This document shows positions 10,819-26,136 of a DNA stretch of 64,000 nucleotides, one piece after another. The translations under genes were made by a program, and so were the position numbers. The notes beneath the pieces are model-generated. The model was not told the DNA's origin. It made no database searches and was given only the letters and a program-made list of their open reading frames with translations. How positions within the stretch are numbered: position 1 is the stretch's first letter; each line of letters starts with the position of its first letter. This DNA is from Thomasclavelia spiroformis DSM 1552 (GTDB lineage: Bacteria > Bacillota_I > Bacilli_A > Erysipelotrichales > Coprobacillaceae), in NCBI RefSeq assembly GCF_025149465.1, contig NZ_CP102275.1, forward strand, positions 1,488,001 to 1,552,000. The letters run 5' to 3'.

Positions 10819-11030
10819 AAAAAGTCGCCCTATTACTAGGAACGACTTAAATCGCGGTACCATCCTAATTCATGAATACTCATGCCCTTTATTAGCTTAT
10901 AACGCAGCTTAAACGGTAATTTTTAATTACTCTCCAAAGTAGCTTTCCTATAAACATGATTAGTATTTTCACCAGCCATACTATCTCTAAAAAACATTTT
11001 TTATAGTACTTTTCTTTTTCAACGATTTAC
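10819..11030 (-). promoter_or_regulatory. T-box leader of alaS
   Basis: The minus strand has the T-box core TGGTACCGCG at 10853-10862 and then a terminator helix (AAGTCG, a 15-base middle, CGACTT, then T run) at 10819-10848. Upstream, GGCTGGTGAAAAT fits the conserved stem I block, and the sequence GGAAA-GCT-ACTTTGGAG puts the specifier GCT (Ala) at 10941-10943. Uncharged tRNA-Ala would stabilise the antiterminator and allow alaS transcription. The codon matches the downstream enzyme. Confidence 0.93.
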
Positions 11031-11033
11031 CAA

Positions 11034-19726: not shown

Positions 19727-19963
19727 TTATAGATTTCTATGATCAACAAATAATTCAAGAATCACCAATCTCTCACTAGTGATGATAGTTATATGAAAAA
19801 TCAAAGCTATAAAAAAATAATCGTAAAATATGTTAAAAAAACTAATCAACAATACTGGAGAACCATGATTTTTTACATATTTCATCAGTTCACATCTTGC
19901 AAATCCATAAGGCAATAATTCACTGATTGTCATATACCTTTTTGGATACTCTTTTTTGACTCC
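19727..19963 (-). pseudogene. Decayed small helix-turn-helix/excisionase-like ORF
   Basis: The minus strand is open through KKEYPKRYMTISELLPYG then FARCELMKYVKNHGSP, a layout like small excisionase or phage helix-turn-helix proteins that begin YMTIxEL. It then runs into an AT-rich hydrophobic tail unlike such proteins. There is no convincing start codon with a ribosome binding site for the longer reading. Probably a remnant from the left part of the element; the family call is weak. Confidence 0.3.
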
Positions 19964-19981
19964 GATTTGATTTCCTCCTTT

Positions 19982-23785: not shown

Positions 23786-24553
23786 ATGGTTAACAAAAAT
23801 AATGGTGGTTTTGAAAAATCAAAGCAATTGAAAAAGGAAACCAATAAAGAATTTGTATCATTAGAAAAAATGATAAAAACAATTCAAGAAGAAACAAATA
23901 AATATAATCAATTAAATTCATCATTTTCTAAAAGTTTAGAACCATTGCAAGAAGCATTTACAACAAGTGAAATAAATTTTGATGGATTAGTTGCTGCTCT
24001 TAACCCTCTTTTGGAGACTATGGAATCATTAAATAAAAAATTTAAACGTTTAGATTACACATCTGTAATAAATACACTAAATCAAAATATTCAAATTTTA
24101 TCAAGTTCAATAAATGCTATAGAACAAAATCAATTAAATAAAAGTTTTATTGATTTAAAAAATTTTGATTGTTCATTAATGCAAAACAGTGAAACTTCCA
24201 TTGCTGAGATGTATGCAACAATAAATGATGAAAACTATGATGAACCAATAGTTGATTATAAGGAATTTAATCTCATATTAAAAACTATTTCATTTATAAA
24301 CGATCCTGTAAAAAGTGTTGAATTTTTGAATAAAGCATTATTTATCGCTGATAACTGTATTGATTACAACATTAAAATTTTAATTTTTAAAAAAATTTTT
24401 GATGAAATAACTTCACTAATTGCTGAAGGATTTGTCACATCTGCTATTTTTTTAATTTCTTTTATATTAACAATACTCTTAAGAGATACTATTATTTATA
24501 AACAGTATTTAGAAATAAAAGAAAGTGTAAAAAAATATAAAGATGATAACTAG
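23786..24553 (+). CDS. Coiled-coil protein with C-terminal membrane segment
   Basis: 255 residues. Residues 1-125 are Lys/Glu/Gln/Asn rich with heptad-like spacing, so a coiled coil is likely. A hydrophobic segment near residues 215-235 (TSAIFLISFILTILLR) is followed by a charged tail. There is no signal peptide. AGGAG lies 8 bases before the start. It is last in the cargo block and its layout (long helix, single membrane anchor) would fit an exclusion or abortive-infection protein, but nothing shows this directly. Confidence 0.7.
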   Translation: MVNKNNGGFEKSKQLKKETNKEFVSLEKMIKTIQEETNKYNQLNSSFSKSLEPLQEAFTTSEINFDGLVAALNPLLETMESLNKKFKRLDYTSVINTLNQNIQILSSSINAIEQNQLNKSFIDLKNFDCSLMQNSETSIAEMYATINDENYDEPIVDYKEFNLILKTISFINDPVKSVEFLNKALFIADNCIDYNIKILIFKKIFDEITSLIAEGFVTSAIFLISFILTILLRDTIIYKQYLEIKESVKKYKDDN

Positions 24554-24626
24554 TTAATGCTTATTGAGCATACAAAAGACAAAAAACAAACATTGATAAT
24601 TTTCTTATTCTAATACTAAAATAAAA

Positions 24627-24707
24627 AACTCCACTGCTACCAACAGTGAAGTTCAAATGAAGTACTACCAATACTTCATAATCAAAAAGACCTACCAAAG
24701 TCCTTTT
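24627..24707. repeat. Three successive hairpins with the same CTACCAA loop
   Basis: Hairpin 1: AACTCCACTG, loop CTACCAA, CAGTGAAGTT (24627-24653). Hairpin 2: ATGAAGTA, loop CTACCAA, TACTTCAT (24657-24679). Hairpin 3: AAAAAGAC, loop CTACCAAA, GTCCTTTT (24684-24707). The stems differ in sequence but all pair, while the loop is kept. It lies in the 220-base gap between the cargo genes and the integrase. Confidence 0.85.
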
Positions 24708-24731
24708 ACGTACTCAATTTTACCACAAGAG

Positions 24732-24770
24732 CACGTCTAAGGCAAATAACAATTGAAAGGACGTGTTTTT
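24732..24770 (+). promoter_or_regulatory. Hairpin spanning the integrase ribosome binding site
   Basis: CACGTC (24732-24737) can pair with GACGTG (24760-24765), followed by five T. The AAAGGA ribosome binding site overlaps the loop and 3' arm. It could act as an attenuator or hold back translation of the integrase. Confidence 0.45.
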
Positions 24771-24773
24771 ATT

Positions 24774-25916
24774 ATGGGAAAATACAAACAAAGAAAAGAC
24801 GGGAGATACGCAACATCAGTAACTTTAGGTGGTAAAAGATATCAAGTATGTGCAAAAACAATTAAAGAAGTTGATAAAAAACTTTTTCAAATAAAATCAA
24901 AATATGAACAAGGTTTAATATTAAGAAGTACAGAAGCTCTTTTTAAAGATTATAAATGGGAATGGTTCAATACAAAAGAACCACTGATCAGCGCTAAATC
25001 GGCACAAAGTTACAAATCAATCTTAAATAATCATTTTGTAGAAATAGATTATAAAAAAATTACTGATATAAAGAAAACTGATATTCAAAGATTAATCAAC
25101 ATACTTATTGATAAACCTAATACAGCAAATAAAGTATATATGACGCTGAATCAAATTTTAGAAAATGCTGTTGATGATGATATCATAAATAAAAATCCAT
25201 GTCGACGTATAGTGAAACCAAAAATTGAAACTAAAAAACAAAAAAGAATTTTAACAGATGAAGAATTCTATTTAACTGAAGTTGCTGAGTTTACCGATCG
25301 TGAAAAAATGTTCGTAATTATGAGTAAGTACTGTGGTCTCAGGCCAGAAGAAACAAGAGCACTAACAAAAGATGATTTTATTATAAATAATAATACTGGA
25401 TACGTTATTATAAATAAAACAGTTGTATATACTTTTAATCAGCCCATTTTTCAAGCATTTACTAAAAATAATAGCAGTATTCGTGAAGTACCTCTATTCG
25501 CTAATATTTTGCCGTTTGTCAGCTATTATCTTTCTAGTATACAAACATCTAAACTTTTCACAAACATCAATGGTGACGACAATTATATGACAAATCAAAG
25601 CTATAAATGGATGATTAAAAAAATAATTGATAAAATTAAGTTAAAAGCAATAGAACTTAATATTGATTTTAATCCTACTGGCTTTACTCCATATGTCTTT
25701 AGACATACGTATGCTACCCTTTTATATTACTCAGGTGTAAGACTTAAAGATGCTGAATACTACATGGGCCACAGTGATAGTAAAATGCTATCACAAGTAT
25801 ACATTCATCTTGATAAAAAACAGCTAAGAGAAAATGATATTATTGAAAATTTTGTTCAAAATAAATTAAAAAATAACCGTGAAGATATGTTAAAACGACT
25901 ACTCAACAATGAGTAG
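24774..25916 (+). CDS. int: Tyrosine recombinase (phage/ICE integrase)
   Basis: About 380 residues. N-terminal AP2-like arm-binding domain (MGKYKQRKDGRYATSVTLGG), SAM-like core-binding domain, then the catalytic domain with Arg in CGLRPEETRAL, HxxR in YVFRHTYATLLYYSG, and the late GH...Y in YMGHSDSKMLSQVYIHLD. All catalytic residues are present. The start is set at ATG 24774; the upstream TTG lies in the ribosome binding site. It is next to tRNA-Lys, a common attachment target. Confidence 0.93.
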   Translation: MGKYKQRKDGRYATSVTLGGKRYQVCAKTIKEVDKKLFQIKSKYEQGLILRSTEALFKDYKWEWFNTKEPLISAKSAQSYKSILNNHFVEIDYKKITDIKKTDIQRLINILIDKPNTANKVYMTLNQILENAVDDDIINKNPCRRIVKPKIETKKQKRILTDEEFYLTEVAEFTDREKMFVIMSKYCGLRPEETRALTKDDFIINNNTGYVIINKTVVYTFNQPIFQAFTKNNSSIREVPLFANILPFVSYYLSSIQTSKLFTNINGDDNYMTNQSYKWMIKKIIDKIKLKAIELNIDFNPTGFTPYVFRHTYATLLYYSGVRLKDAEYYMGHSDSKMLSQVYIHLDKKQLRENDIIENFVQNKLKNNREDMLKRLLNNE

Positions 25917-26060: not shown

Positions 26061-26136
26061 TGGTCTCCCCTCACGGTCTCGAACCGTGGACCCTCTGATT
26101 AAGAGTCAGATGCTCTACCAACTGAGCTAAGGAGAG
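26061..26136 (-). tRNA. tRNA-Lys (CTT)
   Basis: Acceptor CTCTCCT/AGGGGAG, anticodon CTT in GACTCTTAATC, T-arm GGTTCGAGACC, encoded CCA. Its 3' end faces the integrase. Confidence 0.96.

Follow-up and report, generated by a model that had tools for sequence, protein, structure and literature searches.

Three hairpins before an integrase gene

What role could three consecutive hairpins with one and the same loop play just in front of an integrase gene? They are found in Thomasclavelia spiroformis DSM 1552, within the stretch of 64,000 nucleotides analyzed here (the window), between a cargo gene and a tyrosine integrase gene. The preliminary description, made from the letters of the DNA, had considered a structured RNA, an attachment or recombination-control region, or a small RNA of the mobile element. 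Judging from the sequence, the locus contains a genuine and conserved RNA gene, which lies on the minus strand and is predicted to be expressed. Its product is probably a cis-encoded antisense RNA, which would touch the integrase mRNA by means of identical kissing loops and keep integrase levels low during lysogeny. The features of the locus are as follows.

23786..24553, plus strand: cargo gene, co-directional and upstream, with its stop ~70 bases before the sRNA 3' end
24593..24622, plus strand: candidate promoter TTGATA-18-TAAAAT for the integrase strand, immediately preceding the hairpins, without conservation among relatives
24617..24626, minus strand: terminator U-run (promoter/terminator scan)
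24618..24710, minus strand: putative antisense small RNA (sRNA), ~92 nt (promoter/terminator scan; inferred 5' end at 24709-24711, 3' end within the U-run)
24627-24653, minus strand: hairpin 1, AACUUCACUG / UUGGUAG / CAGUGGAGUU, 10-nt arms, loop at 24637-24643; it is the stem of the intrinsic terminator
24657-24679, minus strand: hairpin 2, AUGAAGUA / UUGGUAG / UACUUCAU, 8-bp arms, loop at 24665-24671
24684-24707, minus strand: hairpin 3, the 5' hairpin, AAAAGGAC / UUUGGUAG / GUCUUUUU, 8-nt arms, loop variable among relatives
24717..24745, minus strand: sRNA promoter TTGCCT-17-TAAAAT with an extended -10 (TG), from the scan, present in every relative
24731..24766, plus strand: hairpin GCACGUCU...GGACGUGU with a UUUU tail, directly ahead of the integrase start, terminator-like, covering part of the ribosome site
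24756..24761, plus strand: integrase ribosome-binding site AAAGGA, which can pair with 24700-24707 (GUCCUUUU) within the sRNA-covered part
24774..25916, plus strand: tyrosine integrase gene, 380 aa, the proposed target (PF00589, E value of 2.7e-14; phrog_1)
26061..26136, minus strand: tRNA-Lys, presumed attachment gene at the integrase end of the element

The attachment-site search found no second copy of the tRNA-Lys 3' end.

On the minus strand, the hairpins follow each other at 24653-24627, 24679-24657 and 24707-24684, in agreement with the positions first described, and the CTACCAA loops of the plus strand are the mirror of UUGGUAG (the loop of hairpin 3 reads CTACCAAA on the plus strand, 24692-24699). 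The minus-strand fold reached -34.3 kcal/mol, compared to -18.2 (standard deviation of 2.9) for dinucleotide shuffles, with none of 200 shuffles as good; the resulting z of -5.5, and of -4.0 for the plus-strand fold of the hairpin region, indicates that the hairpins are not due to chance. The arms that had been described as pairing well were found, but stems 1 and 3 have one C.A mismatch each when read on the plus strand, in place of the G.U pair of the minus strand. Folded singly, the three hairpins gave -14.6, -8.2 and -7.7 kcal/mol on the minus strand versus -7.8, -6.7 and -1.8 on the plus strand, and the last hairpin of the minus strand was the only terminator-like site found by the scan in a stretch of 400 bases. 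Since the G.U pairs, the promoter and the terminator are all on the minus strand, the RNA runs from right to left, and the plus strand, on which the hairpins had first been read, had to be abandoned: an RNA from that strand is ruled out by its mismatches and the absent terminator tail. The strand of the RNA, its structure, promoter and terminator, as well as its family and its link to integrases (see below), are established computationally.

A family of RNAs with covarying stems

A pattern search for two CTACCAA loops at the spacing of the window showed that other genomes of the family have this arrangement too, and a scan of IMG/VR detected it in 11 prophage contigs. The IMG/VR pattern matches L046, L047 and L052 were discarded as chance occurrences inside genes. 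A covariance-model search, as the preliminary description had suggested, was run with hairpins 2 and 1 (model R1). It matched the window at 24682-24618 on the minus strand with 87.4 bits and revealed relatives in 26 of the 295 genomes of the order, while under strict filters the samples from the class (395) and the phylum (392) gave no match outside the window's own order. Among 35 distinct matches, all 16 modelled pairs showed double compensatory changes, a number somewhat inflated by the fitting of this alignment to R1, with 97.1% of the cells paired and a covariation score of 0.781 (0.271 when shuffled and ~0.1 when slid). An independent MAFFT alignment of a hand-picked set (A1) gave the same picture, with double changes in 11 of 16 pairs and 97.5% paired. 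The match L079 (E value of 0.01), as well as L069, L073 and L074, where only the terminator hairpin is clear, were omitted from the counts. The double compensatory changes in the stems and the relatives found bear out the original idea of a structured RNA whose loops are conserved while its stems vary. The antisense partner that had been suggested as a reader of the loops also came close, as the RNA itself is antisense to the integrase leader. AT-rich DNA is rich in weak hairpins, and a chance origin or a set of ordinary duplicated terminators might be invoked on that ground; the fold z of -5.5, the model E value of about 1e-14 and a family with covariation contradict this explanation and leave it a negligible probability.

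The sRNA promoter is good in every relative (mean score of 12.1 versus 7.5 in the integrase-strand spacer), and its extended -10 is found in nearly all of them. An RNA start and length were inferred for all members. The 5' hairpin differs among relatives in its loop and even in its length, so the third identical loop is a peculiarity of the window copy; the single loop reported for all three hairpins holds in the window, whereas among relatives only hairpins 1 and 2 share the conserved loop. An extra hairpin with the conserved loop is present in the relatives L027, L042 and L051. Rfam 15 contained no family for the locus even at E values up to 10, chance matches aside, DNA similarity searches of phage and plasmid collections gave only short chance matches to the locus, and no paper on a tandem identical-loop family was found in the open-access literature searched. 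Three CTACCAA-loop hairpins are also present in L036 (4930-5080, minus strand), before a phage gene of 120 aa that is not an obvious integrase; they lack a distinct terminator tail, and the loops may serve another purpose here.

Association with unrelated integrases

The genes downstream from the RNA were scanned (n = 31), and 24 of them matched Phage_integrase and 2 were serine recombinases, while the other five comprised a lipoprotein gene (L080), short integrase-like reading frames (L056 and L062) and two more. One relative has a downstream protein with 69% identity to the window integrase; for the rest, the identity is only between 14 and 23%, and the module is therefore common to unrelated integrases. 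Copies without an intact integrase behind them are L080 (lipoprotein), L067 and L071. The sequence context of the relatives thus supports the earlier suggestion of a small RNA of the mobile element before integrases, and on the sequence side of the test that the preliminary description had set itself, second genomes with tandem hairpins before an integrase were found. Its other suggestion, an attachment or recombination-control site, does not agree with the same module, complete with promoter and terminator, standing before unrelated tyrosine and serine recombinases. More generally, an element acting at the DNA level, either as binding sites for integrase or excisionase or as single-strand hairpins in recombination, would suit the place beside the integrase gene and the near-perfect dyads; it is very improbable given the strand-specific G.U changes, the promoter and terminator on one strand, the double compensatory stem changes, the presence before tyrosine and serine enzymes alike and the distance of ~1.3 kb from the presumed attachment tRNA.

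In many copies, the distance from loop 2 to the ATG is nearly fixed at ~100 nt, and a co-directional stop codon upstream often lies at most about 30 nt from the sRNA 3' end. The spacer between the sRNA start and the integrase start contains no consistent integrase-strand promoter in the relatives. Because the upstream stop is so close and the spacer lacks a consistent promoter, the integrase mRNA should read through the mirror hairpins; the integrase is thus probably translated from an mRNA that crosses them, although the window has its own candidate promoter at 24593-24622.

The upstream cargo varies widely among copies. In L043, L050, L058 and L080 this slot holds varied genes that resemble, by eye only, defence or moron genes (TIR-like, Abi-like, adenine-methylase-like), and PADLOC gave only weak, partial matches for the cargo genes of the window. 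The copy in L080 (G030:C2:97179-97243) is a well-conserved RNA with promoter, located after a TIR-like gene and before the lipoprotein gene. An integrase search of the genome contigs found only two close relatives of the window integrase. The closest, in L005 (86% identical), is not accompanied by such a tandem of hairpins with the conserved loop; the corresponding place (L005:5650-6000) has a different hairpin, which ends in a T-rich tail and is perhaps another antisense RNA.

Identical loops within one RNA

Both loops read UUGGUAG in 21 of 34 copies. Among the other 13, the loops are equal within one RNA as UUGCCAG (three copies), UUACCAG (two), CUGGUAA, UUGCAG or UUGGCG (three), and the remaining three copies have hairpin 1 and hairpin 2 loops that are one pyrimidine transition apart. 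UUGGUAG also occurs in tRNA D-loops; mimicry of these was rejected, as relatives use UUGCCAG, UUACCAG and UUGGCG. The 7-nt loops of hairpins 1 and 2 were identical in 27 of 30 pairs, compared to 53% by permutation, a count biased by the locus-finding script, which demanded near-equal loops for most rows (the covariance search made no such demand). In the variant copies, 6.67 of 7 loop positions matched, compared to 5.26 by permutation (p = 2e-4), and three loci missed by the script and added by hand (L059, L072 and L083) have loops that are equal or nearly so. The two loops therefore change jointly while the stems differ.

Sense and antisense RNA are made from the same DNA, so a change in one loop of a cis pair compensates itself. 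Equal loops would thus suggest a need for each loop to match a second partner as well, such as the mirror loop of the other hairpin or some further RNA, and since the cis pair alone needs no equal loops, a further partner beyond the cis leader is possible. These joint changes would also suit a trans-acting small RNA, in which both loops would recognize one shared target encoded at another place (an mRNA of the host or of a phage, e.g., of a competing prophage), while its position would only mark the site at which prophages collect accessory genes; the copy before a lipoprotein gene and the widely varying upstream cargo point in the same direction. We consider such an RNA unlikely, as most copies immediately precede a recombinase gene, these recombinases are of several unrelated kinds (serine recombinases among them), and the ~100 nt that separate loop 2 from the ATG are nearly constant in many copies.

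In a more speculative and rather unlikely reading, the loops might be interchangeable specificity tags, by which prophages with the same loop would cross-repress their integrases (an RNA-based incompatibility, or superinfection control), with joint loop changes marking compatibility groups as in ColE1-type plasmids. Four genomes with two RNA copies, too few to judge, had equal loops in two cases and different loops in two. Control of the integrase helps to decide whether a prophage stays or leaves. A widespread module shared by unrelated integrases, with loops that change in step, would, if true, amount to plasmid-style antisense control in prophages with the loop as specificity code, and RNA cross-talk among co-resident prophages could be tested directly.

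The integrase leader and a possible mechanism

From sequence we infer expression, kissing and repression as follows. A cis-encoded antisense RNA of ~92 nt, composed of the 5' hairpin, a UUGGUAG hairpin and the terminator hairpin with its UUGGUAG loop, would be made from its own promoter. It would face the 5' leader that precedes the integrase part of an mRNA reading in, probably, from the cargo or lysogeny genes. This leader would carry the mirror hairpins with CUACCAA loops, and the two RNAs would meet by 7-nt loop-loop kissing, as RNA I does with RNA II of ColE1; it is the close resemblance to RNA I that suggests kissing. Pairing would lower integrase output in the integrated state, via cleavage of the duplex or via a leader form with a hidden ribosome site or stopped transcription.

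The ribosome-site or attenuation step, modelled by folding, is the least certain part of this mechanism. Immediately past the sRNA start, many leaders have a hairpin that covers the ribosome site, and in divergent leaders the pairing segments change jointly, by eye, as UACCU/AGGUA in L061, UACCC/GGGUA in L062 and L082, GCUC/GAGC in L072 and L060, and CUCCU/AGGAG in L063. With the sRNA-covered part masked, 28 of 30 leaders hid the ribosome site better than spacer shuffles did (p = 2.6e-7), although many leaders are closely related and these statistics are not independent. Masking closed the site in 9 of the 30 leaders, made no change in 14 and opened it in 7. The window leader is among those unchanged (0.51 and 0.51 with and without masking), and in three Streptococcus pyogenes leaders, masking opened the site in two, clearly in one, and hardly mattered in the third. 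Given this split and the lack of a switch in the S. pyogenes leaders, the switch step is weak and agrees with equilibrium folding only in part; a simple model with the ribosome site concealed by the bound sRNA found only partial support in the masking. Repression may also proceed via duplex cleavage or co-transcriptional folding.

The opposite effect, an activating antisense RNA, would bind the element that otherwise covers the ribosome site (GUCCUUUU in the window) and free it, so that integrase would be made only with the RNA. Indeed, GAAAGGAC of the ribosome site is a possible pairing partner for this segment (24700-24707), which lies within the sRNA-covered part, and masking opens the site somewhat in the 7 leaders mentioned and clearly in one of the S. 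pyogenes leaders. Activation is nevertheless improbable: 9 of the 30 leaders go the opposite way and 14 are unchanged, and full antisense duplexes are usually cleaved by RNase III.

Comparison with known antisense RNAs

In antisense-controlled plasmids such as pT181 and pIP501, binding of the antisense RNA decides whether the leader is open or has a terminator or a hidden ribosome site. Compared with these attenuators, the window RNA would have an integrase as its target, and the switch is borne out by folding only in part (9 of 30 leaders). The statement in the preliminary description that no described element matches was too strong, as integrase-antisense RNAs have been described in S. pyogenes prophages and in ICEBs1. 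By its position, as judged from the sequence, the predicted RNA belongs with them, its gene lying opposite the integrase leader; this kind of RNA is already known, while the tandem identical-loop family, with its build like that of ColE1 RNA I, is new with respect to Rfam 15 and the open-access literature searched. The family would help to interpret, in terms of structure, the integrase-antisense RNAs of Gram-positive elements, which are still poorly understood.

In S. pyogenes, RNA-seq revealed antisense RNAs (SP119_SR034, SR071, SR086 and SR106) before the integrases of four prophages, and these were proposed to silence the integrase in lysogeny (PMC6431027). They share position and direction with the window RNA, as well as the order of a 5' hairpin followed by a terminator hairpin, but have two hairpins and lack the tandem identical 7-nt loops, and their loci score E values above 3 with R1. 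Spy779816 (RF02589) gave no match at gathering score in the window or in seven family loci searched whole, whereas the locus of phage Javan487 was matched. The place in Javan487 corresponds to Spy779816, and judging from position, RF02589 would be one of the four SP119 RNAs. The S169 RNA of ICEBs1 in Bacillus subtilis, compared with the window RNA by position, is antisense to int of an integrative element (PMC12288471).

In ColE1, kissing takes place between the three stem-loops of RNA I and the mirror-image structure of RNA II (PMC8683028). RNA I is an antisense RNA of ~100 nt with three stem-loops, near-identical UUGGUA loops and the last stem-loop as terminator, a build that the window RNA shares. 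R1 matched RNA I with 34.8 bits (E value of 1.3e-4), aligning stem-loops II and III to hairpins 2 and 1, terminator included; the RNA I locus used as control (L087) was confirmed by RF00106, which had no match in the window at gathering score or even at E values up to 10. RNA I acts on a replication primer, whereas the window RNA lies opposite an integrase leader in a chromosomal element, and the likeness is probably convergent.

Type III toxin-antitoxin systems have near-identical direct repeats (ToxI) and ToxN on the same strand, in contrast to the window, with its diverged stems, opposite strand, integrase and no toxin. The loci L035 (4838-5524) and L037 (5322-6008), from genomes G030 and G035, have three 37-nt CTACCAA repeats, a terminator-like hairpin and a ToxN gene (PF13958, E value of 3.9e-34 for L037); these are type III toxin-antitoxin systems unrelated to the window RNA.

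Elsewhere in the window, at 19773-19853 and 19947-19970, a remnant that matches the 3' portion of the integrase gene at 73% identity is found beside tRNA-Ser, together with a similar end motif; this is probably a decayed older element. A T-box leader is present at 10835-11031 on the minus strand (RF00230, 123 bits).
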